Assembly (NCBI RefSeq): GCF_000003605.2
Contig: NW_003131867.1
Location: 12,800 to 35,648 of the forward strand
Direction: 5' to 3'
From: Saccoglossus kowalevskii
Lineage: Eukaryota; Hemichordata; Enteropneusta; Harrimaniidae
DNA: 22,849 nt
How positions within the stretch are numbered: the stretch's first letter is position 1; the number at the start of each line of letters is the position of its first letter. Made by a program: the position numbers and the translations under genes. Of the stretch, positions 74-17,866 are shown piece by piece. The notes beneath the pieces are model-generated. The model made no database searches and was not told where the DNA came from. It saw only the letters and a list, made by a program, of their open reading frames with translations.

Positions 74-184
74 CACAATTTTTTTCGTCTGAACCGTCTC
101 CACAGTCGTCGTTGCCGTCACAGAGATAGTGTTTTGGAACACAATATCCTGTATCTGAACACCGCATGGTAAACGCACGACATT
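74..184 (-). CDS. LDLa exon A (module 16, six cysteines)
   Basis: A 111-nt phase 1-1 exon with donor GTAAGT and acceptor TTCTTGCAG. It encodes a full LDLa repeat with six cysteines, ending in [16 protein letters not shown], so the calcium-loop acids are all present. It is the last module visible; the next exon would lie left of position 1. Positions 1-73 are intron. Confidence 0.93.
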
Positions 185-3100
185 CTGCAAGAAGAGCGAA
201 ATGACAAGCATATTACAATAATCAAGTTTAAAGTTATTTCCGATAGGTACAGTATTGGAATCAGTGTGTTAAAATAATTCACTCACCACAGCCCTTCTCG
301 TCGCTTTTATCGGAACAATCAAAGTTCATGTCACAGACAGGAGAGGGATGATCAGGTCGTCGCGTTATTTTTTCACCATTGTTACATACAAAGGTCACTA
401 TGAATATAAAAAAGTATTATTATACTCAAACAGCGAATAGAATTAAAGATGCAATCAAAAGTATACAACAATTATTCTAAATGTAGTATGCAAGGTAAGT
501 CTAATAATACTCACTTTGTAGGTATGCTTTTATTTTTAAGATAGCAAATTTATTTTTTTATATTTTATAGGGCATTGACAGTTAGACACGTTTGACAGTG
601 CATTTATGAGTTCTTTAGATATCACGGTGAAATTCGCAATTTCAATATCACAGGACAGAATAGTAGTAACAATTATATATGACAGTGATATATTTGAAAA
701 TTAACTTACCACAATCCTGTTCGTCAGAATTATCACCACAAGAGTCATATCCGTCACATCGATCATAATGCCACTTACAAATACCATTATCACATCGAAA
801 TCTATCAGCACTCTCATCACATGCTAAATAAAACAAATGAGATATTTTAGGCCATAATAAAGTATTTGTAATTTATTATTCCTATAATCTTTACATTGAA
901 AAAATGTAAAATGAAACTACCAGACAATATATGGGATTTCTACGGTTACAAATTTCACAAAACACCATTTATTCAAGAACAAAAATTAAATAAAAATATA
1001 CAAAACAACATATCTTAATATTGGGAATCAAAAAGGCATACAATTTTAGTTTCTTAGCAATGAGCTAGACAGTGCTGTGATATACCTCATAAACATAGAA
1101 TGACCAGAAACTTACGACAATCTTGTTCATCACTTTGGTCATCACAATCGGCATATCCATCACAAGAAAAGTTTCCTTGAGGTCGAACCTGTCCATCATC
1201 ACATACATAGTACACTGCAGAAAAAATATTATTTACGGCTTGCTATGTACTTTGAATTCTGCGCTTACCAATGTGTTATATATTTAAACAATAATGAATC
1301 CATATAGCAACATATTGGAAAATGGTCAATGCCAAGTCGACGGTGGTCGTCGCACCGCGTAATGTTCTGTATGGGACCAATAGCGACGTATACACGTGTA
1401 AAGCTCATTGTGTATATGAAATTCGATAACGCGCTCTGCGACGATCGCCGCGCAATTAACCTCAACATATATATCTCAAAGTCTGGTTCATGTTGATGTA
1501 TTGGGCAACAATGAGAACATAAAACGTGCCAAACTTTCTTTGTTCGATTAGGGTCTATAGTTAAACAGCAATGAGTAACGCGATCATAATAAGTTGTCTC
1601 CACATTTTGTTTATGATTAGAAAAATAACATTATGCCACACTTCTCACATTTTGCAACAAATTGGTGCTATGAAAAGTTCCAAAAATGAAAAAAATCCTA
1701 CGATGAATATTTGTTTTTTTAACATTTTTAAAATATGATCTGAAATCTGCCATAAAAAACAACAATATTAATATAGTTTCGTCCGTGTCGTTATTCATTA
1801 ATACTTACTACGTTGACAAAAACAAATATTTGCATCTCATAATGTAACTCACCACAATTATTCTCATCACTGTTGTCACCACAGTCATCGTGGTTATTAC
1901 ATATGCTATACTCAGGTTTACATAAACCATTATCACACTCGAACGCGCCTTCTTCGCATTCTAGAAACATGAGGTATCAAGGTTAATTGAAAACAATCAA
2001 TCACTTGTCGAGTTTAATAGCGATTCCCGCCATACAACATAAAAATATAAACGCCACACACAACGACAGCAACAATAACAACAACAACAATATAAAACGT
2101 AAATCAAATCAAACAAAACAATGATTTTATCAACATATCGTTGTCTGGTTTTCTGTATGAAGACATTGATTTGCGACTTATGCTTGAACGCAGTACAAGC
2201 TCTGTTGTGGTTCAACTATGCACTAGAAATGCCGTTGAACTCACGGACGGACTCACGAATACCATACACCAAGGGTTTAAAACATTGTATAATGGAATCT
2301 TACCACAATTCTTCTCATCCGAATGGTCTTCACAATTAAACCAATTATCGCACTCCGCATCGAAAGGAACCAAACTTCCGTCGTCACACTGAAAATCAGC
2401 TGAATAGACATTTGGAAACGAGGTAATACTCATGAGTGAATTTCTGGAAAATTACAATTTGAAGTGTAACGATAGCAAATGTATGCGGAAATAATATTTT
2501 GGATTCTCTTTGTGAGTAAAATGGGAACATGTGGTTACTTTGTGTTGTAAATGGGAAAATGCTGACATAAAATCACAAAACTGTTTATCAACAATCAATG
2601 TCATGAAATTGATTTAGCTGCTACATAATTATAATTAGTAATAAGCAGTCATTGGATACGTCAAATAGCATTTAATGATTGGCCGTTTTCATCGACAATG
2701 TCATTGTTTCGTACATTCAAGGCATACGTTCATAATTAATAATTCAAAGTACTGTCACATTACGGCAGTCACATGTATCTCAGTGATCTTTGTACATGCA
2801 AAAGAATAACAAGAGTAAAATTGTGTAACATTCAAAGCACAATATTGTGATAATTTTATACAAACCCACCACATAATTCTGCACTTTCATCAGATCCATC
2901 ACTACAGTCTTCAGCGCCATTACATCGCAGCCAAAGGCCGACACAACTACCATCTCCACACGTGAACTCGTAGTACTCGCATATTATATCTATCAATATG
3001 ATTATGTATAATATGTAAATGTTATTGTTCCGTCAATGTTAATATAAACAGACATGATTTAATGAATGGTAGGACGTAGTACAAAATAAAAATGTCGTCA

Positions 3101-6100
3101 TGTCCCAGCAAGAGTTATGTTAGATGTTTTAGATTGACGTATTGTTTACTGAATTACATATCATTGGTGTTGAATGATGAAGGGGTCAGATATTAATTTT
3201 GTTTTAGGGTGAAGTTTAGTGTGACACAAGTAGTATGTTTGACTATTAATATGACCAATATCACATTTATAAAGCCCTTAAGGAGTTTAAGACTCGATAT
3301 GGTTTAATTCTACTCAACAATTGTACTGACTATTAAACTTTTTTAAATTGATATATCCAATTTGTTAATAAACATTACTGAACAAAAGTACATTTACGAC
3401 CACACCATCAATTTATGTTACCTACCAAGATTTACCACCACCACCACTACCACTGCATAACATTTCTATCCCCTGCAAACACTAACATCACTAAGTACCC
3501 CTTAGATCAACGAACACACAAGGTAGAATAGAAGATATTAAAGCAGTATCTGTACTTTTACAGTTCAAGTAGTAGTCACTCGGAACTTCAAAAATAATTT
3601 TTATGTCGGGAGAAATTTTTCAAAATATAACAAATTGATAGTGAAATTATAAATTATAAACATCATTGATCCATCTCTAGGGGAGTTTTTTAAGCCGGCC
3701 ACAATAACAATAAGTGTGTGGTTTCCCGAGAGATGTGTGACAAGGTGATGTCCAGCTGCTGGAATAATTTAAAAACAAATATAAAATAGTAGTAAATCAA
3801 TTGTCTTAAAACACATTAGTAATCATACAACTAAAAACTTAAGTTGTGTCACAATAACCGCATTCAGCTTCATTATTCCGGGAAAATTAACATACTGATA
3901 TGTCCCTATGCGCAGACTGGTGACATTACTATTATACACGATTCAATGTATCATGCACCTAAATGTATATCAGATTACTTCAGATATGTAAACCAATCAT
4001 CCAAATTATATATATAACACACGACTGCACTCCAGTGTGTTTCAGATTAAAAATACAAGCAACAATACCCAACTATAATCCAAACAATCAATGTCAAAAG
4101 GCAATATTTAAAAATCCGAGAACACACAGGGGACACACAAACAAAACAAACAACACACTGTCAAATTGGTGAGAGAGATATATAGACATCAAGGCATAAG
4201 CCAAGAGGTGATGTCAGGTTTCGAAAAGAGTATGTAATAGGCTATAGGCCGACACAACTATCATTTCCACATTTGAACTCGTAGTTGTCGCATATTATAT
4301 CTATATGAATATGTATAATATCTGAATATTATAGTTCCGTCAAAATGAATATAAACGGCATGATTTAAGGATGCTGTATAGGTTTTTGGTATTGATTTTC
4401 TAAACGGGTGTTTCCAGCTAAAATATTTACTGAACCATACAAAGCTATATATTGATTGAAAGCTTATTTCACACTGAATGTGAAATCGACAGTGTAGTGT
4501 GTTTATGGACGTGCATAGTCACGTGATCTCTGTGTAAACACAGAAAGCCATTTTCGGTAGAGAAATAATTGAACCAATGAATAAACGAATTTTGTAGAAG
4601 ATTTGCAACAAAACAGTTTTTTCAGACGACGCTCACAACCATTCTGCGTTATTTGAGATATATATGTACATGATAGTTGTGGAAGGAATAATAATTTAGC
4701 TATCTTGAAAAAACAATACGATTTTGTTTTTTCCGGTATTCAGAAATTGGAACGTAATTTCGAAACAAATAGGAAAAATCCCAGAGCCGCTTTAGATGTT
4801 GTTGATAGAAGAACGTATTAAGTAGCCGAAAATACAATCTACGTCATATCTCAGCAAGCGTTTGGTGTGTTTTAGTGACTTCATGTTAACTATATTACAT
4901 ATCAGTGGTGTGATTGATGAAAGGATTACATTCAAGATGATGATTCTGCTTCCGAGGCAATACGTTAATATACCAATCAAATATAATAATACCTTATTTT
5001 CAAAGCTCCGAATGCGTGGCAGTTAATTTAATCCTACATGCTGTAGATGATCCTATTTGTAACTTTTGTGTTACTACGTCCAGAATGTCCGGAAACGTTT
5101 GGTGTAAGTTTAGTCAAGGAAAGCTTGATGTGAAACATTCATTTTATGGTCAGGATTTACTGATAATATAAGGGGACAGATTTGCCTAAAAAATATCAAT
5201 TCATATTGACGAATTTCAGGAATGAGATGCCGCCCATATGTTGTTGTTTTTTTATTTAAATTGGTAATAACCTACTTTAAGGTAAACATGGATCGTTTTA
5301 ACAGATTGTCTCACCGTCGTCCATTGATTAACATGTTAAATTCACTTTACATAGATTTTAGACATTTTATATGGATACAGAATAAAAACAAAATAAAAAA
5401 CTGCGTTTATAGAGTACAAATGATCACTTACCACAGCCAAGTTCATCACTACCATCATCGCATTCATTCCACCCCGTACAGTTAGCGTCTTTACGAACGA
5501 ATTGGCCATTAGCACATTTATAATGCCCTAAAATGGTTTAAGACAAGATATGGTTAAATTTTACTTATAACAGTACATCCCTCGATCTTAGTCTCAGTAA
5601 CTGTAAAAGCAAACTTCTTTGAATTGATATTATATATTTGTAAATAAATATTATTGAACATTATTTACTACCACGCCACTACTACCAACACCACAATTAT
5701 CAATTACTACTTATATCAACAAACACACAAGACAGGATGGAGGATATGAAGGGCAAAATCTGTTCAAAATCAGTTTCATTAGAAGTCATTCAGAATTGCA
5801 ATAATCATTTCGTCAATACGCAGGTGAGAAATTATTCAAAATATAACGGAAAATTGATTACGAACAGCATCTAGAAGATTTGTAAATAAACTGGCTACAA
5901 CAAAAATTGCATCTTGCTGGATAAATTCAACATATTATACTAAAATAAATATACCACAGTAATAATTTACTTATCACGTCAAATTCGTAGTCCAAAACTT
6001 TTTTTGTTAACTTTAGCAAAACATTTGTTACAATTGACAATATAATTCATAATGGTTAAGCTCCATCTCGTGTGTGTATATATGTCTGCAATGTTACTAT

Positions 6101-9100
6101 CTGTAACTATCACGGTTGTATGTATCGGTTCCCAATGACCGCCTGATTTTGACATTCGTCCATTTTTGTTTGTTTGCCGATGATTCAATTTGGTTTCACA
6201 AAGCTCGGTGTAAGCCAGTACAGTACATTTCAATGAGATTAATTGTATTTTGATGAATGTCTTGTCATGACGCAATTTTAATAATCTACAAAAAAACAAT
6301 TATACAGTTATATTTAGAGATCAGAGAAAAAGGGAAATGTGCCAGTTTCAATTATAATTCAGAGTACTTATTTAAAAGAAGTTGGTAATGTACAATTTTT
6401 TGGAATTCAATTCAAAATTAAGTACAGTGTGTCACATTAGTCATCATTCAACTACACATCTTTGTTGTGTCACGATAACTGCATTTGGCTTGTTTACAAG
6501 TCATTCAGTTTCATTATTCCGGGAAAGTTGACATAATTGGTATATTCCAAATACACGGGCTCATGACCATTTTGTTTATACACGATTCAATGTATCATAA
6601 TGCACCCAATCGTATATCATTTTACTTCGTATATATAAATCAATTTAGCAAATTATCTATATAACAAACGACAGCACAGCACGATTTAATGTATTATAAT
6701 TCACTCTACTGTGTTTCACATTATATCAAATATGTAAATTATCTATATAATACAAGACATCTTAACGGATGTTATATTGCAGATATTAACGATGAAAGAT
6801 TTAAAAGTACCTGTACGCTAAGTACCTGAGTGATTGCTAGGCTTAACAAAAACTTTTTAAAATATCAGATTCTAAAATTGCAATTTTGTAGAGCTGTGGG
6901 GGTTAAAATAAAACAACAAACACTAAAATATCCTGAGATGGTTCTGCATGCGAAGGTACGTTTATATCTTAAATCACAATCACAACTTATCATTCAATCT
7001 TACCACAGTTTTCTTCATCGCTGTTATCGCCACAGTCATCATAGAGGTTACACACAGAATAACTTCCGTCAATACATTTACCGTTTGTACATTGAAATTG
7101 ATTGTCTGTGCATTCTATAACAAAATAAAAGGTTTATATGAGTCACGCAAGATCCAATGTTCAAATGTAGTTGCATATATCAAAGACATATAAGCTGTTT
7201 GCATACTTGTATTACACACTCAACCTGAGACTGGTCGGTAATTCTATTCATACATCAAAGCACAATGCACTTCCTCAAAAAATAACATGCCATTGTCGCT
7301 TTGTGTCGTCACAAGAAGCGCTGTCTCAGCACAGTCCTGTGTCATATGACGCTTTACTGGCCGATTAGGCTAAGATAGCCCTTCGCCGCCTTTTTACACC
7401 AGTGTTTATACACGGGACTTGATAATTCTTTTTACAATTTAAGTTGCTGGTCAATCACTTATTTTAGTGAAATATTGTTTAGCGAGTGGAATATTAATGT
7501 CATGCATAATTCAATCTTTGGATCAGCAGAAACTAGGCCATATTAATGATAATAAAATTCGTGTTTGAAGTACGAAATTTCATTCATCATTATTTAGTAA
7601 AAAAATCACTGAAACGATTGACTTCGAAACGTTCGAAGTTTCGAACAAACTCACAGCACTCCCTGCGCCATATGCGTCACATCGGTGTTGAAAGAACACC
7701 GACCTTCAGCGTCAATGGCCATTGCCGTATTTGACAATTGTGTTACGTAATTGCTAAAAAATGATCAGACAATAAAGGTTTATTTTATTGCCTTTCATCG
7801 GTTGATCGAATTCATTAAAACAATCCACAAGAACAAGTACATCACAATATATTGTCCAACAGCAGGATGTATACAAATATGACTATAATTACTTTAATCA
7901 GATTGTGAATCATGTGCCACTGTGATAATATACATTTCAAACACAATATAGCAGTGCATGATCGAATAGAGCTTCTGGTGCTAGTCAAAACCTTGTAGAG
8001 GTGAAGGACCTATTTTCAATGAAATTGTATTGCAATAATTTACAAAGCAATGGTAAACATCCATGTGCCCTGTGACAGCACAGCAATGCTATTCTATATT
8101 TATCATTTGAGAGTCCATCTGCACTCACGTAAGTTTGTCCAAGTGATGTGTTTACTCAAAGCCCTATACTGGTGTTCGTTGTTACGTAATCCTGTACTCA
8201 CCACAATTGAGTTCATCAGTGAAATCTTCACAAATAGGCCAACCATTACATCGATCCCATGGACTGAAACATTTACTACTGTTTTTACACTGTTCCATGG
8301 GAGGACTGCAATCAGCTGTGAAACACACAGAATTATATGTAATGCGGTTGTTCATCTGGATACTATTTTTCAAATAGGTTTTATAGCGAAACGTCGCTTT
8401 TTTTCTGAGCAAATTTGCTTTCTGCATTAAAAACTACCCCAGAAGCAAAATGTGTATATTGATCTTTAAGTGGGATTGAATCGCCCAAACATTTAGACCT
8501 TTTTACATTTAATTTGGTAGCATGCGCGAGAACTGCCAAAATCACTATTTAGTTGTACATACCGCTATTTTGAATGACCATGCGTGTAGTAAAATACGAT
8601 TGAATGCGATCAAGGATGTTGTCAACTAGATGTAGCTAAATGCACCTACGTTGCATTTTGGTAAAGATATGACTATTTTAATTTTATCGGACTATTTGTG
8701 ATACTTTGGATTATTGCTTTACATGTATTCACGTTTTGGTTAAATCTCTAAATTAAACCTGTGTAGCGTATTTTATTCAACCTTCAATACTTCATTCTAT
8801 TCATTTTAGTACTTGAAAATAAGATTAATTCTGTCTTTTGTTGAATACTTCACTTAAATAGTTATGGCATAAATCATCACCAATTCCACAAACTCATAGG
8901 AAATAGCAATCTTGACAATTCCCATTTTCTATCATCGTAATATTATTTCGGAAGTGAGGTCGAAGTACAATCAATCTTATATTTGCAAGGTTTTGTGTAC
9001 CTTGCATAGTTATATAAAATTACGACTCCCGTGATATTCAACAAACCACAATAAAGGATTATTAAAAATTGATAATAGTTCGTAAGAACATTATCAGATT

Positions 9101-12100
9101 GTTATATGTCTTTTACAATTGATTTGTGGTAATTTTTTCAGCGTGCATATTTTGATTTGGAAAACTATGAATTATATTTTATGAACCTGGAAAAATTGGA
9201 AACATTTATTGGCTGAAAATGGAATATATGTTGGACTTAGTTACGTATAATGCATCACAATTACATTGTAACATTACATTATCATCGTCTATTAATGCAA
9301 TGTAAATAATGCGTTATTATTATTATAAACTTTGCACGAATAATTGTTGGGAAAACTTACGGCAATTAACTTCGTCTTCTCCATTGGCACAGTCAGGATT
9401 CCCATCACAAACTTGCTCCATAGTAATACAATTTTCATCACCGCACCGATACATAAAGTCTCTGAAGCAATAATTACCATAACCACTAGGAATGGAAGCT
9501 ACAATGAAATGATACATTTTATAATTTAATGAGTTTAATGTATCTAATATGATTTACTACTTTTTTAACTTGTCTGAATACTGCACACTACCGGCAATTT
9601 CCTCTTGACCTGGCTCGACTTATATAACCTGATATGCCAAATCTTTACAACTGATACAGCGACTTTCAAATTCAATAGAAGATTCATTAATATTTATGCA
9701 TAAAAGAAAATAATCAGAATATTAAATAATTTGACGAACACTGAGGTTGCTAATTTTCGGGACCAACGGGATAGATGCATAGTGATGTTCCCTAGTTGCG
9801 TCATCCCTATATTAACTATATAGTGGGCAACGTACCATTTAGGTGATAAATTACAACCAAGTGCGAGAAACATACCATGCTAAACCATAACATACCAAAT
9901 ATGAATTAAGGCTGATCATTAAGATTTGACGAGGAATTGGTAGGTTGTGAATATGTCACTTGAAGTATATTACTTATTGTATTGTATTTGATAATTCACA
10001 TTAGGAAATGTTCGCTTCGAACTTTTTATGATACGGCATTATTTATACATTTCGTTGTGTACTAACATGTTTACTGATAATGTTTTTGGACCAACACTTA
10101 TGGATGAAAACCTTTCCAATTAGACTCAACCAATGTGTTAAGTGTTTATGATTGTTGACGATTACTATGTCTTCAAGTCATATTTGGTAAAGAAAGATGT
10201 TCTTGTTAATATTTTTCGCATGCTTTTACTCTATGCAACATGGAAATTAATGTATCAGTATGTCTACTCACTAACAAATATCGCATAGGCAATTACTTTT
10301 ACTGATTACTTATTTCATTACTATTTTTAATTTCTTGCATTAAAAAAAACAAATTTGTTTGTAATATTTTCTAAATTAATTTGATCAGTATCTGTCTCTA
10401 TTCATATTTCTGAAATCTCAATAAAAAAGATTGTACATGTTTGACTATTTTGTGTCATAGTTGATCTCAGATTTACTAGTTATTTACCGAGATCTGTCAT
10501 AGTCCCTATCTAAATCTTTGAGATAAAGAGCTATTAAGTGATTTACTCTGCTTTACAAAAAATGTTTTTTAAAAATTGTTGATTTGTTTGAAATTTTGGT
10601 TTTATTGGATATGAATATTCTTATTTATTCTTTTTATTATAAGCCACATAATTTTTGATAGGATTTATTATGGTTTTTCACGGTGGCAATATAGATAGGG
10701 TTGTTCAAAAACTATTGTTGAATGTCCAAATACATTGTCAATCTGGTGGCAGAAGCAGGCACAAATTCATTACGAACGGTGATGGTGATGTTCGAATATT
10801 TTACCATTTTGAGCTAAACAAGATAAACAACAGTAAGTGTAATTTGTGTTTATTAGATGAAATTTTATCAGTAATTTCGACCTTTGATGAATCTAGGATG
10901 CAGTTAAAATCTGTACCAGTGTACCATTGTCGAGATGAAATTGTTCACAGACGTAATGTACACGTCAAATATCAAAGCAATCGGGTTGGTAGTACAAACA
11001 AAAATCGAAGGTAAAAAATTTTACTAAAACTTACAAAAATATTTTTTTTAATAGAGAATTGACAATATCGTCACAAAATGAAAAATCTAAAAGAGATTCA
11101 CCCAAAGTACTTACATACCAAATATCAAGGCAGTTGTTTCAATTGAATTTCAATGAAACGTTTCGTAAACATGTTAATTTTTTTTTATAAAATACGTGAA
11201 CAGCTATTTTGAATGCGTGTATTGATAATTATCAATAAAACATTTGACCTACGACAGTTTTCTTCATCTGAATTATCATCACAATCGTCGTAACCATTGC
11301 ATATATCCTTCTCTGGTACTAAGATACCATTCTTGCATTCCTTTAAATCTGTACATTGAAAAAAATATAAAATACTTTACCTAAACACGTCATTCTGATT
11401 GACCAATATACCAAGGATAGACCTTATGCGTGCATAACATACAGTTGCAGTAAATCTGGATGTCAAGAGAAATCGGCAAGGAGTTGACATGTTGAAGATT
11501 TCAACTCTAGGATGTTTTATTTCTAATGAGATGCATGTGAAATTTTCTTTTTACCATTATGTTAAAGACGTCAAAATATAATTGCCATATGGAGTTATAA
11601 TTAATTATTTGGTTTTTTGGTGAATAAAAATAATTCCTCATCCTGCAACTACATTTATAATACGTTCGTAAAATTTCGTAAAGTATAATAGCAATGAACC
11701 ACCGCATCAGTGTACTTGTGTATATATTTTGTGAATTGTTCAATATTTCGTGGCATCATCTAGTGCTGTGATTTATTTATTAGATATGTTATTAGTAAAG
11801 TTGTTTCATGTATAAGGGACATGCGTTGGTATATATGGAGGTTACGGCACAATATTTAATCAAGTGCACCGACCGACATCCGCTTCAAAAATGTTTAACT
11901 TTGATGATTTGTAGCACTAGAATCTTGAATCGAATCTTGCAACAAAATTGCGTCTAAATTATAGGCAGGCACACATGGACGGATGCATCACCGAAGGGAT
12001 TATACATATTTTAATTAATGAACCGAACATTCTTAGAAAATAACCATACCCAGGGGAATTGTTGGAATATCTTAACAAGTTACACCAGTAATCATATAGA

Positions 12101-15100
12101 GTAAAATATCTTGATATAATATGCAATAAGTATTTACCACAACCGTCCTCATCAGACCAATCACCACAGTCGTTATAACCATCACATCGGCTCCATTCAT
12201 CATAACAACTACCATCGGTACACTTAAAGTGTGATTCATTACACTCAGCTTGAGGTTCTGTTGACAACATTAATATTGTGTGCCATTGTGAAAATGTAAT
12301 TTTATTTTCAGCGTACCAAATACACGTCTGGTCGACAATACGGTCATGCCAACAAATATATTATCTTGATGAGAAGTCCTTGTGATAAATAATCCAAGTG
12401 GTCTTGCATCAAACATGTTTGACTTTCGCTGATAATGTAGATCACGTTCAGACTGTAAGATGTGCATGTGAATAACTCATCGAACACGTTCCATCGAAGA
12501 TGCACGCATTTGATTAAAAGGTAACGACAATGTGTTTTATGATCCCAGGTAACATGGTCGGATCCAGTGACCATATGATTTGATACAAGTGTTGTTTTCT
12601 AATAGTACAAATATCATTTGTAACTGTAAAATATGTCCGATGCTGATATTAGTCTGATATCGAACTGTTCACAATGATCCTTTTTGTTAAGAATCACGAT
12701 CCATGGGAGTTCCACCAAAGAAGAACAAATATGGAATTTCACATAAAAAATGTCCTATCTGTGATGTTACCAATCTTTAGCCATACATGTGCATACAACC
12801 AATAAGGATTATTGAATATGAAGAGCTTACCACACCCAGATTCGTCACTACCATCTGCACAGTCTTCATAGCCATCACATACAGAGAACCGATGCACGAT
12901 GCCACCATTGGTGCAAACAACTAAATATAATGAAAAACAACAACATCAACAACTGAATGTGCATTTAACATATATGTAATTGTAATTATACTGATGAAAT
13001 ACGTGCCTCGTATTAATGCAATGAATATACACTTACAATCGAAATCTTCACAATTCAGCTCATCAGAACCATCGAGACATTGTGGATAACCATCACAAAC
13101 AAAATGTATAGATATCATTCTTCCAAACTCACACTCAAATCGTGGCACAGCTGAAATGACATAGATGGTGAAGGGGTTTACAAGCATACATGATTCAAGG
13201 CATAATTGAATACGCCACAGAGATAGTAAGGTAACGCATCTAATACTCACTATATCTACTTAGAGATTCATCACTGCAACAGGTAACAGTCAGGTAACTT
13301 ACTGCATTTAGTTGGTGATTCATCACTGCCATCGTGACAGTAAGGTAACCCATCACATACTTACTACATCTACTTGGTGATTTATCACTGCCATCGAGAC
13401 AGTCAGGTCACCCATCACGTACTTACTGCATCTAAATGGTGATTTATCACTGCCATCAAGACAGTCAAGTAACCCATCACATACTACTACATCTACTTGG
13501 TGATTTATCACTGCCATCGAGACAGTCATGTAACCCATCACATACTTACTGCATCTACTTGGTGATTCATCACTATCATCAAGACAGTCAGGTAACCCAT
13601 CACATACTTACTGCATCTACTTGGTGATTCATCACTGCCATCGAGACAGTCAGGTAACCGATCACATACTTACTGCATCTACTTGGTGATTCATCACTGC
13701 CATCGAGACAGTCAGGTAACCCATCACATACTTACTGCATTTAGTTGGTGGTTCATCACTGCTATCAAGACAGTCAGGTAACCCATCACATACTTACTGC
13801 ATCTACTTGGTGATTCATCACTGCCATCGAGACAGTCAGGTAACCGATCACATACTTACTGCTTCTACTTGGTGATTGATCACTGTCAACAAGACAGTCA
13901 GGCAATCCATCAAATACTTACTGAATCTAGCTGGTGATTCATCACTGCATCAAGAGAGTAGGGTACCCTATCACATACTTACTGCATCTAGTTGGTGATT
14001 TATCACTGCCATCAAGACAGTCAGGTAACCCATCACATACTTACTGCTTCTACTTGATGATTGATCACTGCCATCGAGACAGTCAGGTAATCGATCACAT
14101 ACTTACTGCTTCTACTTGGTGATTGATCACTGTCAACAAGACAGTCAGGTAACCGATCACATACTTACTGCTTCTACTTGGTGATTCATCACTGTCATCA
14201 AGACAGTCAGGTAACCCACAACATACTTACTGCATCTACTTGGTGATTCATCTCTGCCATCAATACAGTCATGTAACCCATAACTTACTTTCTGCATCTA
14301 CTTGGTGATTGATCACTGTCAACAAGACAGTCAGGCAATCCATCAAATACTTACTGAATCTAGCTGGTGATTCATCACTGCATCAAGAGAGTAGGGTACC
14401 CTATCACATACTTACTGCATCTACTTGGTGCTTCATCACTGTCATCAAGACAGTCAGGTAACCCACAACATACTTACTGCATCTACTTGGTGATTCATCT
14501 CTGCCATCAATACAGTCATGTAACCCATAACTTACTTTCTGCATCTACTTGGTGATTGATCACTGTCAACAAGACAGTCAGGCAATCCATCAAATACTTA
14601 CTGAATCTAGCTGGTGATTCATCACTGCATCAAGAGAGTAGGGTACCCTATCACATACTTACTGCATCTACTTGGTGATTCATCACTGCATCAAGAGAGT
14701 AGGGTACCCTATCACATACTTACTGCATCTAGTTGGTGATTCATCACTGTCATCAAGACAGTCAGGTAACCCATCACATACTTACTGCATGTACTTGGTG
14801 ATTCGTCACTTCCATCAAGACAGTCAGGTATCCCGTCGCATGCTTGGTTCTCTTGTAAACAAACCACTCCATCATCACATACAAATTCTTCTGGGTAACA
14901 ATCTGACATGAAATAAATGTGTGTATTACGTGAGAGTTCTTACATGTATTCGAATTTTTATAAATATTGACAAATCTTGACCATTGGCATATATTATAAT
15001 AATGTTTTGTTCTGATCATTATTGTATTTTGAAAATAAAATGTTAGTGTGACGCACATCGAGTACAGCTTTACTGCCTACTGATTACCATAGTTTTTTTT

Positions 15101-17866
15101 ATAAATAATATTCACCAGTGACATTTAACTGCGTATCCCTATCTCTTGTATGTGGAATGATGTGGGAAACCCACCAAGTTAAGTAGCCTGTTTCAATGCT
15201 TCAGTGAATTCATAGTTTGTTATACCCTTCCAAGACCTTGTGGTGAATGGAGCTAAATGCGATGATTGACCATTAGTGATCGCAAAACGGTAACTGGTTA
15301 TTTGATTAGCAGTCGATGCTTATGGGGCAACTGAACTACATACTGGGGATGTTAGTGGTGAAAATGTTGTTGTTTTTTGATATATATATATATAAGCAGA
15401 ATTTACGTGTTGGGTTGACACATACAGATTTTCAATCGCTGTGGTATGAAAGCTGTAAATCTTATTCGAAGTATTGAGGACGGAGATCGGAATCTGATTG
15501 TTCAAATTAGTTCAACAAGTTTGTAATTTAACTTCAATTGAAGCTCGTACTTTAAACACTGCTGGAAGTAACTTTTAAATGGTTAAACTGACTGGAGGAA
15601 CTGTTGAGACTGCGAAAGGACGCACAGTGTTGGTGAAATGTGGTCAACAGCTGTACTAGCGACATCTACGACTGGGATTTAAACTTAATGTAGATGCATG
15701 ACAGACTCAACTTGATTTGAAGGAATTTTGTTTTGACTCGGGATCACTACGAATTGAGTCACACTAGGCGACAAATAATTCAGTATGATAAATCATATGA
15801 ATTGATAAACATTCAGTGTGAGATAATTTGGTTATGAGAGACACAAGAATGTGGATCACTGTCGGCTTTCATTTGCCTTATGGATTTTGCGGCAAACTTT
15901 ACAAATTAAACGAAACTGAGGCGTATAAAAAATTATTGCTTTTATACACAACAAACGCGTTGTTATGTTTTCAATTCATTAATCGTAGCACGTAATGCAG
16001 TCTATTGCGCCATACGATTCTTTATCCCACCTCATCTCACTAGGAACGTTGGGTTGCAAACAGGAACATTCGAACGTTTTCATAAAGAACGCGGCTCTTA
16101 TGTTGAACGTTCTAGTTTCAATGACGAATACGAGCAAACAGTGCGAGATAAGAATGACATGGGAGGGAACGATGCGTACCGTGACAAAATGATTAATTTA
16201 TGATTTGTGTATGTATATGCGATATAACACATGAAAGATGAACTTAACAACAATGCAACACAAAACTAACTGCAGTCATTATATACCCATTCATACTGTG
16301 AAAATACTGTACCTTGTTTTGGTTCTATACACGTCATACCACAATCAGTATCACAACATTTCTGGTTGAAAGGACATTCTGCGTCATGTTGGCATCTAAT
16401 ATCACATGACAAACCAGTGTTCGTGAATGGACAACGGCCAGGCTTCAAACCTAAATCAATGGATACAATAACTGAGGGTTTTAGCTTATCTATTTTCATT
16501 GAACTTCGTGAACTTATACCCCGATGAATGTATTAATCTAAACATTGAAATTAAGTAATAGTGAAAATAAACGATTTCACAGCTGCAGTGGTTAACCATA
16601 ACCTGTGTAAAGTTTTGATTCACATTCAAACGAAAGATTGTAATTCGCTACCGCGGTGCGAATTTGTCCCATTGTAACATTTACGCGCGAAGTCCATATC
16701 ACATCCAGATGGTGGGACTTAAGAAAGTCGTTCAATAATCGATCGGATTTTTACGTTAATTTTGAGAACTGCTTGTTTTATTTTGAATGATAAGTTAAAC
16801 GTAAATACATTCCTCACACTCGACGAGAATTTCGTTCGGTCGCGTACGATGATTTAGCATGGGAAATAATAGTTTAAAGCAAATTTACTTACAATTAATG
16901 TTTAACCAAACTAAATCTGAGCACAGTGGTATATAGTGATATTTACCTTTACAAACTGGTGGTGGCTGGTTGGGAGCCGTCGCTGTATAAGCAATATAAT
17001 TTCCATACTTATTCACACATACGCACATGCCTCTCTTCAAACATTGTGTCGGTGAAAAACTGCCGTCTTTCTCACACTGATATTCCATGTAGCCATAATC
17101 AATGTTCTGCTTCAATGCCAAAGCAAATTCATGACAGTACTCAGGTTCTTCCTTCACGTTAATCACATTATCTAAAATCACAAATCATCATCAAATAACA
17201 AACAATGGAATCACATAGATTTATACTATGTGTTTATTACATGAACACAACAAAGTGTGAACTAAAGCACTGCGGTGGTCATACTTGTCGATCGATGCGA
17301 TTTCGTACAGCCTGAGTGCATACTTTGCGGTATTCTTGTGATCACCTAGTGGTTATACATCTTACGCTGCTTACAGAGGTTCGAACGTGCTCGTAACAAT
17401 ATCGTAACACATTCGTACGGCTTATTACGAATGAATGAATAATATTGCATTTGGTGCCCTATGAATAATAATGTATGAATAATGTTGTATATACTGTATG
17501 GACAATAATACCGATGGTGTGTAGGTATTATGTGTAAACTCGGCGTGCCAGTTGTTTGACGCATTTCATTTTTTATAAGTATATAAGGATTCGATACTCG
17601 TACACTCGCGAAAGAATACCGGGCTTTCTAAAATGCTGAAAAAATGCGTTCACTAATGTTCGAAAACTACTAACACCGTGAGTGCTGTTGTCTCACCTAA
17701 TATTTACAATGCGTACAACATGCCCAGGTCGTGTAATTTATGTGTTTATTATTGCAATGAGTCGAAATAATAAAACGTATGTGTACAAGTACATACCTTG
17801 GTTTTTAGCTGCACATATTTGATACAGTATACAAAACACCAGCACAACACTTCCTATTCTCTTCAT
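74..17866 (-). CDS. Multi-exon gene: signal peptide + thyroglobulin type-1 + WAP + 16 LDLa modules (3' end outside window)
   Basis: Nineteen exons can be joined from 17866 down to 74 in one open frame of about 729 residues. Order: secretion signal, thyroglobulin type-1 (TY1), WAP four-disulfide core, then 16 LDL-receptor class A repeats. All 18 internal junctions are phase 1, so each domain exon could be added or removed without breaking the frame. TY1 and WAP modules are often protease inhibitors, and LDLa arrays bind ligands or proteins through a calcium loop. A secreted or cell-surface inhibitor or receptor is therefore inferred, not shown. No transmembrane segment, EGF or YWTD domain is seen, but the C-terminus lies beyond position 1. 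Sequons for N-glycosylation occur in four LDLa exons. I do not recognise a named orthologue with this architecture. Exon calls rest on domain fit plus splice signals, without transcript evidence. Confidence 0.9.
287..397 (-). CDS. LDLa exon B (module 15, four cysteines)
   Basis: A 111-nt phase 1-1 exon with donor GTGAGT and acceptor TTCATAG. The module starts TFVCNNGE and ends [16 protein letters not shown]. It has cysteines II, IV, V and VI but lacks I and III. The stretch between II and IV is 16 residues, longer than in the other four-cysteine modules (11-12), and includes [10 protein letters not shown]. The DxSDE loop is intact. Confidence 0.88.
398..709 (-). other. Intron between LDLa exons C and B
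   Basis: AT-rich intron with standard splice ends. I see no further LDLa signature, repeat or gene in it. Confidence 0.6.
710..823 (-). CDS. LDLa exon C (module 14, six cysteines)
   Basis: A 114-nt phase 1-1 exon with donor GTAAGT and acceptor TTTATTTAG. It encodes a complete repeat containing FRCDNGIC and [16 protein letters not shown], with six cysteines and the standard calcium-binding acids. The preceding exon D ends in C, so the junction codon is CCA (Pro). Confidence 0.93.
1116..1214 (-). CDS. LDLa exon D (module 13, four cysteines)
   Basis: A 99-nt phase 1-1 exon with donor GTAAGT and acceptor TTTCTGCAG. It reads [18 protein letters not shown] then [15 protein letters not shown]. Cysteines I and III are absent; II, IV, V and VI remain. 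NFS is a possible N-glycosylation site directly before cysteine IV. The calcium loop is complete. Confidence 0.9.
1215..1852 (-). other. Intron between LDLa exons E and D
   Basis: A 638-bp intron. The stretch about 1320-1600 is less AT-rich than its surroundings and holds a chance-length minus-strand open frame with no recognisable domain. It may be a mobile-element remnant, but I find no terminal repeats. Confidence 0.5.
1853..1960 (-). CDS. LDLa exon E (module 12, six cysteines)
   Basis: A 108-nt phase 1-1 exon with donor GTGAGT and acceptor TGTTTCTAG. It encodes [13 protein letters not shown] and [16 protein letters not shown], a complete six-cysteine module. It resembles exon I ([16 protein letters not shown]), so the two may be older paralogues. 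Confidence 0.93.
2045..2095. repeat. Short CAA-rich simple repeat
   Basis: An interrupted run of CAA/ACA triplets in the intron between LDLa exons F and E. The rest of that 343-bp intron (1961-2303) shows nothing else. Confidence 0.6.
2304..2399 (-). CDS. LDLa exon F (module 11, four cysteines)
   Basis: A 96-nt phase 1-1 exon with donor GTAAGA and acceptor TCTATTCAG. It reads [16 protein letters not shown] then [15 protein letters not shown]. Cysteines I and III are missing and the other four are kept. A second AG ten bases inside (at 2389-2390) would shift the frame and remove DFQ, so I preferred the outer acceptor. Confidence 0.88.
2400..2869 (-). other. Intron between LDLa exons G and F
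   Basis: A 470-bp AT-rich intron. No gene, repeat array or further module is seen. Confidence 0.6.
2870..2989 (-). CDS. LDLa exon G (module 10, six cysteines)
   Basis: A 120-nt phase 1-1 exon with donor GTGGGT and acceptor TTGATAG. It encodes [14 protein letters not shown] and [18 protein letters not shown], with six cysteines and two extra residues before the last one. A decayed copy of its first half lies at 4246-4300 (copy B of a tandem duplication). Confidence 0.92.
3251..3278 (-). pseudogene. Stub of a four-cysteine LDLa exon (copy A counterpart of exon H)
   Basis: Plus-strand CACATTTATAAAGCCCT matches the start of exon H and its acceptor (CACATTTATAATGCCCT), and the adjoining intron also matches (about 27 of 35 bases). 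Read on the minus strand after the kept AG it begins LYKCDIGH, comparable to HYKCANGQ in exon H. The rest of the module and the donor are gone. Confidence 0.75.
4246..4300 (-). pseudogene. Half LDLa exon (copy B counterpart of exon G)
   Basis: The minus strand reads [18 protein letters not shown] and then hits TAG, against [18 protein letters not shown] in exon G. The splice acceptor is still intact, but everything after cysteine III, including the donor, is missing. It is a truncated pseudo-exon in the intron between exons H and G. Confidence 0.85.
5432..5527 (-). CDS. LDLa exon H (module 9, four cysteines)
   Basis: A 96-nt phase 1-1 exon with donor GTAAGT and acceptor CATTTTAG. It reads [16 protein letters not shown] then [15 protein letters not shown]. 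Cysteines I and III are absent; II, IV, V and VI remain. NCT is a possible N-glycosylation site whose middle residue is cysteine IV. A stub of its duplicate lies at 3251-3278. Confidence 0.9.
5528..7003 (-). other. Intron between LDLa exons I and H
   Basis: Mostly copy B of the tandem duplication up to about 6750. The part 5960-6420 has no counterpart in copy A and holds a chance-length minus-strand open frame without recognisable domains. Positions 6750-7003 show nothing. Confidence 0.5.
7004..7114 (-). CDS. LDLa exon I (module 8, six cysteines)
   Basis: A 111-nt phase 1-1 exon with donor GTAAGA and acceptor TTGTTATAG. It encodes [13 protein letters not shown] and [16 protein letters not shown], a complete six-cysteine module. 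Confidence 0.93.
7115..8201 (-). other. Intron between LDLa exons J and I
   Basis: A 1,087-bp intron. The part 7610-7710 has a cluster of perfect inverted repeats, listed separately. No extra module or gene is seen. Confidence 0.5.
7622..7702. repeat. Cluster of short perfect inverted repeats
   Basis: Overlapping arms around TTCGAA at 7621-7646 (ACTTCGAA/TTCGAAGT and GTTCGAA/TTCGAAC) are followed by TCGGTGTT-GAAAG-AACACCGA at 7682-7702, a perfect 8-bp stem with a 5-nt loop. The stretch is richer in GC than the intron around it. Role unknown; a mobile-element remnant is possible. Confidence 0.5.
8202..8315 (-). CDS. LDLa exon J (module 7, six cysteines)
   Basis: A 114-nt phase 1-1 exon with donor GTGAGT and acceptor TTTCACAG. 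It encodes [15 protein letters not shown] and [16 protein letters not shown]. All six cysteines are kept, but the acid before cysteine V is Ile and the SDE motif is TDE, so calcium binding may be weakened. NSS is a possible glycosylation site. Confidence 0.9.
8316..9360 (-). other. Intron between LDLa exons K and J
   Basis: A 1,045-bp AT-rich intron. I see no gene, array or further module. Confidence 0.5.
9361..9498 (-). CDS. LDLa exon K (module 6, six cysteines, long linker)
   Basis: A 138-nt phase 1-1 exon with donor GTAAGT and acceptor CATTGTAG. A linker of about ten residues (SIPSGYGNY) precedes a six-cysteine module with [10 protein letters not shown] and [16 protein letters not shown]. 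The usual SDE is EDE. It is the longest LDLa exon in the gene. Confidence 0.9.
9499..11252 (-). other. Largest clean intron, between LDLa exons L and K
   Basis: A 1,754-bp intron, very AT-rich at 10000-10650. Apart from the plus-strand open frame at 10670-11014, listed separately, nothing is seen. Confidence 0.5.
10670..11014 (+). other. Unassigned plus-strand open frame inside an intron
   Basis: An ATG-started frame of 114 codons beginning [17 protein letters not shown], with a basic C-terminus ([12 protein letters not shown]). It contains several Cys and His residues but no motif I recognise. At this base composition roughly one frame of this length per window is expected by chance, so it may be meaningless. 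A nested gene or a mobile-element remnant are alternatives. Confidence 0.15.
11253..11348 (-). CDS. LDLa exon L (module 5, four cysteines)
   Basis: A 96-nt phase 1-1 exon with donor GTAGGT and acceptor AATGTACAG. It reads [16 protein letters not shown] then [15 protein letters not shown]. Cysteines I and III are absent and the calcium loop is complete. Confidence 0.9.
11349..12137 (-). other. Intron between LDLa exons M and L
   Basis: A 789-bp intron with no recognisable feature. Confidence 0.5.
12138..12257 (-). CDS. LDLa exon M (module 4, six cysteines)
   Basis: A 120-nt phase 1-1 exon with donor GTAAAT and acceptor GTCAACAG. It encodes [18 protein letters not shown] and [16 protein letters not shown], a textbook LDLa module. 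NES is a possible glycosylation site. A nearer AG at 12249-12250 would break phase 1, so the outer one was chosen. Confidence 0.92.
12258..12830 (-). other. Intron between LDLa exons N and M
   Basis: A 573-bp intron. No gene, repeat or extra module is seen. Confidence 0.5.
12831..12920 (-). CDS. LDLa exon N (module 3, four cysteines)
   Basis: A 90-nt phase 1-1 exon, the shortest LDLa exon, with donor GTAAGC and acceptor ATATTTAG. It reads [14 protein letters not shown] then [15 protein letters not shown]. Cysteines I and III are missing. Only 115 bp separate it from exon O, another four-cysteine exon, so these two may be a tandem pair. Confidence 0.9.
13037..13150 (-). CDS. LDLa exon O (module 2, four cysteines)
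   Basis: A 114-nt phase 1-1 exon with donor GTAAGT and acceptor CATTTCAG. It reads [18 protein letters not shown] then [15 protein letters not shown], followed by a five-residue tail EDFDF across the next junction. Cysteines I and III are absent. Its end (CLDGSDE) is close to the minisatellite unit just upstream. Confidence 0.9.
13216..14785 (-). repeat. 62-bp minisatellite built from an LDLa exon-donor junction
   Basis: About 25 head-to-tail units fill most of the intron between exons P and O. On the minus strand each unit contains TGTGATGGGTTACCTGACTG, then codes for [12 protein letters not shown], then A|GTAAGT, so it copies the last third of exon P together with its splice donor. The period is 62 bp with some 60-61 bp units. 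Since 62 is not a multiple of three, reading through changes frame and soon meets TGA. Nearly all units keep GTAAGT; the one near 13480 has lost a T there. The left end (13216-13300) is degenerate and the right end runs straight into exon P. Confidence 0.93.
14176..14669 (-). repeat. 247-bp higher-order repeat, two copies
   Basis: Within the minisatellite, 14176-14422 and 14423-14669 are four-unit blocks that are almost identical; I see one difference (GATTC against GCTTC near the start). A two-unit part of the block also recurs at about 13866-13990. This points to recent unequal exchange or slippage. Confidence 0.85.
14786..14902 (-). CDS. LDLa exon P (module 1, six cysteines)
   Basis: A 117-nt phase 1-1 exon with donor GTAAGT and acceptor TTTCATGTCAG. 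It encodes [14 protein letters not shown] and [18 protein letters not shown], a complete six-cysteine module. It is the first LDLa module of the protein and the parent of the adjoining minisatellite, whose units repeat its final third and donor. Using any donor further into the array would add sequence out of frame. Confidence 0.92.
14903..16312 (-). other. Intron between the WAP exon and LDLa exon P
   Basis: A 1,410-bp intron with a short TA dinucleotide run at 15380-15394. No LDLa, WAP or TY1 signature or gene is seen. Confidence 0.5.
16313..16450 (-). CDS. WAP four-disulfide core exon
   Basis: A 138-nt phase 1-1 exon with donor GTACAG and acceptor ATTGATTTAG. It starts GLKPGRCPF and continues with [18 protein letters not shown] and DTDCGMTC. 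The eight cysteines match the WAP pattern, including the adjacent Cys pair and the CxxxC ending, and the length (46 residues) is normal. WAP domains include elastase- and trypsin-like protease inhibitors and antimicrobial proteins. The inhibitory loop between the first two cysteines reads PFTNTGLS, which does not reveal a target protease. Confidence 0.93.
16642..16664. repeat. 23-bp near-perfect GC-centred palindrome
   Basis: AATTCGC, a single T, the self-complementary ACCGCGGT, then GCGAATT. The arms pair perfectly and only one base is unpaired, in an AT-rich intron. It could be a dimeric factor site, a cruciform or an element end; no function can be assigned. Confidence 0.5.
16893..16946 (-). 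CDS. Possible alternative extension of the TY1 exon
   Basis: Beyond the near donor (GTAAAT) the TY1 frame stays open for 18 codons, [18 protein letters not shown], and reaches a stronger donor GTAAGT at 16892-16887. That donor also leaves phase 1, so it would join the WAP exon in frame and replace the same junction codon position (TGT instead of GGT). If neither donor is used, translation ends at TAA (16885-16887) two codons later, giving a short secreted TY1 protein. The inverted copy at 22380-22410 aligns to this tail with gaps in threes and also ends in a stop. Confidence 0.45.
16947..17171 (-). CDS. Thyroglobulin type-1 domain exon
   Basis: A 225-nt phase 1-1 exon with donor GTAAAT and acceptor GATTTTAG. 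After [13 protein letters not shown] the domain follows the TY1 order: cysteine I, helix-rich stretch ([10 protein letters not shown]), cysteine II in [11 protein letters not shown], the CVCV version of the family's CWCV motif, and the closing PPPVCK. Six cysteines and 75 residues are normal for the type. TY1 domains occur in secreted proteins and several inhibit papain-like cysteine proteases or aspartic proteases; activity here is not predictable. A decayed inverted copy lies at 22221-22410. Confidence 0.93.
17172..17796 (-). other. First intron
   Basis: A 625-bp intron. Plus-strand 17349-17390 looks vaguely like a tRNA-derived element: TAGTGGTTA resembles an A box and GGTTCGAAC a B box, but the spacing (31 bases) is about seven too short and the T-stem does not pair. 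Its 3' end, before the TY1 exon, aligns with sequence before the inverted copy. Confidence 0.4.
17797..17866 (-). CDS. First coding exon: signal peptide
   Basis: A 70-nt coding exon with donor GTATGT, ending in phase 1. It starts [20 protein letters not shown], a basic start, a hydrophobic core and small residues before a likely cleavage after CAA; the mature chain would begin near KNQD. The ATG is the first downstream of the TATA box and has AAA before it, a favourable context. The junction to the TY1 exon makes GAT (Asp). Confidence 0.9.

Follow-up and report, generated by a model that had tools for sequence, protein, structure and literature searches.

We describe a gene of the hemichordate Saccoglossus kowalevskii that encodes sixteen LDLa modules of two kinds, nine with six cysteines (P, M, K, J, I, G, E, C and A) and seven with four (O, N, L, H, F, D and B). 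The gene lies on the minus strand of the 22,849-nucleotide stretch analysed here (the window; contig NW_003131867.1, positions 12,800 to 35,648, or C2354:12800-35648 in the searched genome of 572 megabases and 4830 contigs). In every four-cysteine module the missing pair is cysteines I and III, and II, IV, V and VI are kept. LDLa pairing is given in the accessible part of PMC6192581 as I-III, II-V and IV-VI, and on that pairing the four-cysteine modules presumably lack the I-III bond. Since I and III are absent, the seven are an LDLa variant and not canonical LDLa, and we hold it probable, at roughly 0.8, that they represent a selected two-disulfide variant of the module. An initial annotation had read the seven as a stable subtype with four cysteines and not as decay, a proposal supported by the selection on F, D and B, the predicted fold of F and the paired absence of the same cysteines in bacteria.

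Sequence features of the four-cysteine modules

The four-cysteine modules are encoded by O (13037..13150), N (12831..12920), L (11253..11348), H (5432..5527), F (2304..2399), D (1116..1214) and B (287..397), all on the minus strand. On that strand we confirmed the claim that these seven of the sixteen lack exactly I and III, and that none has lost one partner alone. The D-x-S-D-E calcium loop, described as kept, is present in all seven, and the II-IV spacing, put at 11-12 residues in six of them, was counted as 11 in five modules, 12 in one and 16 in B, which has a longer loop. The gap between IV and V is five residues in the window modules, and position III of the seven is occupied by M, I, L, F, L, V and K. 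If losses were independent among the sixteen modules, the chance of drawing the same seven for I and for III would be 1/11440 (8.7e-5), an independence that duplication could violate.

The joined protein matches the LDLa profile (PF00057) in 16 stretches, with 330.4 bits. Scored alone against the cut-off of 24.1 bits, O (39.3), N (37.8), H (29.9), L (29.6), F (27.7) and B (24.2) pass, and D (22.3) falls slightly short. With the LDLa family the seven share the profile, the spacing of II, IV, V and VI, the D-x-S-D-E site and the predicted fold of F, and they differ in the absence of I and III and in starting nearer Cys II. Four or six residues separate the preceding Cys VI from Cys II in four-cysteine modules, compared with 8 to 18 in six-cysteine modules. 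The exon start precedes Cys II by 1-5 codons in the former and by 7-17 in the latter, whose Cys I is the first full codon in five of nine exons and one of the first three codons in seven.

From the N-terminus, with the number of cysteines after each letter, the modules run P6 O4 N4 M6 L4 K6 J6 I6 H4 G6 F4 E6 D4 C6 B4 A6. This order comprises 13 runs (permutation p = 0.026), with strict alternation from I to A. Within the window the closest match of some four-cysteine modules is a six-cysteine one, L pairing with E and N with M.

Selection and predicted fold

A second copy of the gene, on contig C3846 (C3846:9000-18500; L170), holds exons corresponding to I, G, F, D, C, B and A; neither H nor E was found in that interval. 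With H and E missing there, whole phase-1 exons seem to be gained or lost between copies. Exons of the two copies are 90-98% identical and most longer, largely intronic stretches 78-85%, one stretch of 104 bases reaching 92%. Every cysteine is kept between the copies, none has been gained at I or III, and F, D and B remain four-cysteine modules. Substitution rates between the copies (Nei-Gojobori with Jukes-Cantor correction) give the four-cysteine F, D and B a synonymous rate (Ks) of 0.201, a nonsynonymous rate (Ka) of 0.052 and a ratio of 0.26 (p = 0.003), and the six-cysteine I, G, C and A a Ks of 0.141, a Ka of 0.045 and a ratio of 0.32 (p = 0.006). Judged by these substitutions, purifying selection is acting on F, D and B. 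After its A counterpart the copy has an exon with one further six-cysteine module and then a stop codon, which would leave it without a membrane anchor after the LDLa modules and suggests that the window gene may end likewise. A third copy of F, 91% identical and stop-free, lies at C3846:58447-58548 in the opposite orientation on the same contig.

For module F, AlphaFold2 predicts an LDLa fold, N-terminal hairpin included, with a predicted local distance difference test score (pLDDT) of 94, and the model lies 1.1 A from LDLR module 5 over 34 residues. The initial annotation had suggested modelling the fold without the missing pair, and F is predicted to retain it. In LDLR module 5 the N and C lobes are linked by a hydrogen-bonding network, according to the accessible part of PMC4500599.

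These results bear on the idea that the seven are degenerating copies, whose cysteines were lost as they ceased to be important. B does have a long II-IV loop, D alone falls below the Pfam cut-off, and H lacks a counterpart in the gene copy, as does the six-cysteine E. Yet selection on F, D and B is as strong as on the six-cysteine modules, splice sites and frame are intact in all seven, the identical two cysteines are gone each time, and F is predicted to fold. We rejected decay on the Ka/Ks of F, D and B and consider it very unlikely. The four cysteines might also bond differently, for instance from one module to the next, in which case the seven would not be LDLa minus one bond. Only 4-6 residues separate a Cys VI from the Cys II that follows it, but the predicted F fold superposes on LDLa, and II, IV, V, VI and the D-x-S-D-E site stand at LDLa spacing, which makes such a pairing seem very unlikely to us.

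Paired absence in bacterial LDLa arrays

An LDLa DNA pattern left free at I and III was run on a prokaryote collection, with at least one match of II-IV spacing 11 required per locus, and returned at least 120 loci. Modules were obtained from 114, and a few rows are chance matches (e.g. in L011 and L075); all bacterial counts here hold among the matches listed. Neither I nor III is present in 110 of the 287 modules in the 114 loci, and both are present in 102. The rest comprise 67 without III but with an upstream cysteine, one without I only, and seven unparsed. In 35 of the 67 the upstream cysteine follows a D/E-E stretch and is read as Cys VI of the previous module; 30 of the other 32 have no recognised module within 40 residues before them, and two are tandem-internal losses of III alone.

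Cys I is best defined in tandem-internal modules, which follow a recognised module at a distance of at most 40 residues. The initial annotation had proposed a search for relatives of the seven, and the same paired absence occurs in 87 of 136 such modules; 46 have both cysteines, two lack III only, none lacks I only, and one is unparsed. Fisher's test on the co-absence gives p = 4e-34, a value that ignores relatedness. Of 63 loci with tandem-internal modules, 56 belong to Myxococcota, and by type 47 are four-cysteine, 15 six-cysteine and one other, with none mixed. When III alone is scored over all parsed modules, one of 113 loci (L097) holds both kinds, and its III-less module has another cysteine three residues further on. 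Among the four-cysteine tandem-internal modules the II-IV spacing is 11 in 71 of 87. In bacterial four-cysteine modules, E, T, V or S occupies position III in 48 of the 69 distinct sequences.

The bacterial arrays, found in Nannocystis, Polyangiaceae and other Myxococcota, are like the window's four-cysteine modules in lacking I and III and unlike the window gene in showing a single type among the tandem-internal modules listed, several of them in apparent lipoproteins. These lipoproteins, recognised by eye (L034, L046, L070, L072, L100 and L105; myxobacterial where the title was seen), have a D/G/S/T-rich linker followed by 3 or 4 pure four-cysteine LDLa modules. In Candidatus Endonucleobacter from the mussel Gigantidas childressi (L083), three four-cysteine modules precede a hydrophobic, probably membrane-spanning stretch, also read by eye. 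An IMG/VR contig (L001) carries several LDLa modules, unusual for a viral collection, and may be a bacterial stretch.

Exon borders and a probable route of cysteine I loss

The initial annotation had named other exon borders, supplying the missing cysteines, as what would speak against its proposal. A check of the open frame in the 170 bases upstream of Cys IV found a phase-compatible acceptor that adds a cysteine only for O; its 15-base tract has 7-8 pyrimidines, whereas the tracts of the acceptors that the seven use have 10-12. For N, L, H, F, D and B the same span holds no phase-compatible alternative that adds a cysteine; D has one weak alternative acceptor, which adds none. Alternative borders thus come down to weak candidates for O.

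Were the borders nonetheless in error, real acceptors upstream or extra exons would supply the missing cysteines, and the upstream phase-compatible AGs of O, together with an in-frame TGT codon directly before the acceptor of L, are what that explanation can draw on. It is countered by the pyrimidine content and agreeing phases of the acceptors used, by the lack of cysteine-adding alternatives for the six other modules, and by the preservation of F, D and B exon lengths and phase-1 acceptors in the gene copy. The position of Cys III, moreover, is inside the exon, so that its absence would go unexplained, and bacterial genes, read as single frames, miss the same pair. We regard a border error as very unlikely.

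With the seven read as true four-cysteine modules, Cys I was probably lost in this gene when the splice acceptor shifted, as we infer from exon structure. Cys I lies close to the 5' edge of most six-cysteine exons, where a downstream shift would remove it in frame; Cys III, left unpaired, would then have been replaced. Abutting the acceptor of exon L (11349-11355), an in-frame TGT ACA G that continues into the exon as AT reads C-T-D, like the start of six-cysteine module I. This is suggestive of a Cys I relic in the intron, found for one of the seven, and could be chance. Module I itself has an in-phase AG nine bases inside its exon. Bacterial genes are single frames, so another route of cysteine loss is needed there, and this speaks for the bond itself being dispensable.

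Other LDLa regions of the genome

We read 90 modules in 20 regions of the same genome picked around family matches: 74 have six cysteines, 11 have four, four were scored as having III without I, and one was unparsed. Three of the four scored with III alone (in L169, L172 and L175) are six-cysteine modules by eye, the cysteine just upstream having been excluded by the acceptor filter. The 11 four-cysteine modules occur in L157, L158, L159, L160, L170 and L173, each next to six-cysteine exons that share its strand. Because L159 and L160 are almost identical parts of a single contig, about nine of the 11 are distinct. Several of these modules have T-I-P or E-I-P at position III. In 30 smaller loci, some at the same places as the 20 regions, 57 modules comprise 50 with six cysteines, three without I and III, two with an upstream cysteine but no III, one without I, and one unparsed.

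The claim that mixing both types in one chain is unusual fits the bacteria, in which none of the 62 loci typed by their tandem-internal modules mixes them, but not this genome, which mixes them in four further regions and in the gene copy. Mixed exons within one gene are supported for the gene copy alone, by its match to the window gene. A region on another contig (L169, C4670:33500-43400) contains an open frame of 1735 codons with 25 LDLa profile matches and no visible introns, where one-module exons are the pattern elsewhere; a stricter motif matched one module there, and most of its modules are atypical.

Discussion

Several observations weigh against a selected two-disulfide variant. The Asp before Cys V is replaced by Gln in O, Glu in H and Asn in F, and calcium affinity may differ in these three of the seven; it is also absent from the six-cysteine J and C. 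The seven are not set apart from the six-cysteine modules on the remaining sequence (permutation p 0.15-0.18), and a tree of the modules has no supported branch (28 usable columns; 4 changes, bootstrap range 3-6). With III masked, the window four-cysteine modules did not score significantly nearer to the four-cysteine profile from bacteria (p = 0.42; 10 of the 16 modules gave a score). The pairing of the losses is broken by one L172 module that has III without I in its open frame, by an L163 module, unparsed by script, that shows Tyr at the position of Cys II when inspected by eye, a lone loss, and by a bacterial module (L044) that has III but no I. The selection test draws on a single gene copy, with 7 modules and a small number of substitutions. 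The fold was modelled for one of the window's seven four-cysteine modules, from an alignment of four-cysteine modules, by AlphaFold2, which tests neither disulfides nor metal.

The tree does not resolve whether the four-cysteine modules of the window share an ancestor. A shared origin of the animal and bacterial four-cysteine modules, whether as an ancient subtype or through gene transfer, would fit the absence of the same pair, the mostly equal II-IV spacing, the similarly short module-to-module spacing and the T-I-P or E-I-P found, as in bacteria, at position III in several other exons of the genome. However, once III is masked the window's four-cysteine modules show no significant preference for the bacterial four-cysteine over the six-cysteine profile, a comparison that leaves kinship unsupported, and the best matches of L to E and of N to M fit repeated conversion. 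We consider a shared origin unlikely.

As for precedents, among the titles and opening lines of abstracts listed in the literature searched, whose coverage leaves out most subscription journals, none describes LDLa modules without I and III. The accessible parts of PMC13337447 and PMC7851593 are irrelevant here, and that of PMC4742823 does not mention LDL. The first LDLa-like segment of glucosidase II beta has been solved (PDB 5f0e, 5hjo and others) and lacks Cys III in the aligned part, but its Cys IV is displaced (Y-C-D-C), a spacing unlike the five residues between IV and V in the window modules, and the protein is an endoplasmic-reticulum enzyme subunit, unlike the window protein. The two-disulfide 'atypical' Kazal domains of LEKTI and EPI1 are likewise cysteine-rich modules minus exactly one disulfide pair, and in EPI1 such a domain neighbours a typical one on the same chain and forms a stable inhibitor (accessible part of PMC1236909). 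They belong to another domain family, and EPI1 is an inhibitor from an oomycete and no animal LDLa protein.

In a selected two-disulfide module, the II-V and IV-VI bonds and a calcium ion at the D-x-S-D-E site would hold the C-terminal lobe. The I-III bond of six-cysteine LDLa would clamp the N-terminal hairpin, which in its absence would be held by backbone pairing and the non-cysteine residue at position III. A four-cysteine module is shorter at its start, and alternation would therefore change spacing and flexibility along the chain, with the short modules setting the spacing of calcium-dependent binding sites. The product would be a secreted, many-site calcium-dependent binding protein with thyroglobulin-1 and WAP domains. 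More tentatively, LDLa might comprise two stable structural classes, of three and two disulfides, in bacteria and animals, which this animal lineage interleaves in single secreted chains as interchangeable exons, the short class setting spacing and calcium response between binding sites.

The accessible part of PMC6192581 presents LDLa as a module with three disulfides and reports an association of LDL receptor cysteine substitutions with disease. A natural form without I and III, apparently kept by selection and recurring in bacteria, marks a bond that may be dispensable. The four-cysteine modules offer a natural series for folding studies, and the alternating gene places both classes next to each other, where they can be compared directly. 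A strict six-cysteine rule in LDLa annotation would miss a class.

Gene architecture and neighbouring features

The gene has 19 exons within the window, with AG/GT borders and phase-1 introns, which join into 729 stop-free codons encoding, in order, a signal peptide, a thyroglobulin-1 domain, a WAP domain and the 16 LDLa modules. Exon 1 (17797..17866) supplies the ATG and the signal peptide, recognised by eye, and ends at a GTATGT donor. Exon 2 (16947..17171) encodes the thyroglobulin type-1 domain (PF00086, E 9.4e-10) and exon 3 (16313..16450) the WAP domain (PF00095, E 1e-11). The six-cysteine modules, like these exons on the minus strand, are P (14786..14902), M (12138..12257), K (9361..9498), J (8202..8315), I (7004..7114), G (2870..2989), E (1853..1960), C (710..823) and A (74..184), the final module readable in the window. 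Each of the 16 LDLa exons is bordered by AG and GT, and its length is a multiple of three.

A 62-base-pair repeat (13297-14845; 25 copies, 87% matches) takes up most of the intron that separates P from O. Its unit corresponds to the 3' half of exon P, from Cys IV to VI, with the splice donor; P is the first copy in gene order, and the intron copies carry possible donors. At about 4247-4371 the 5' part of exon G is partially duplicated, apparently without being used, and this duplicate matches the exon G region of the gene copy (L170, 1437-1566) at 85%.

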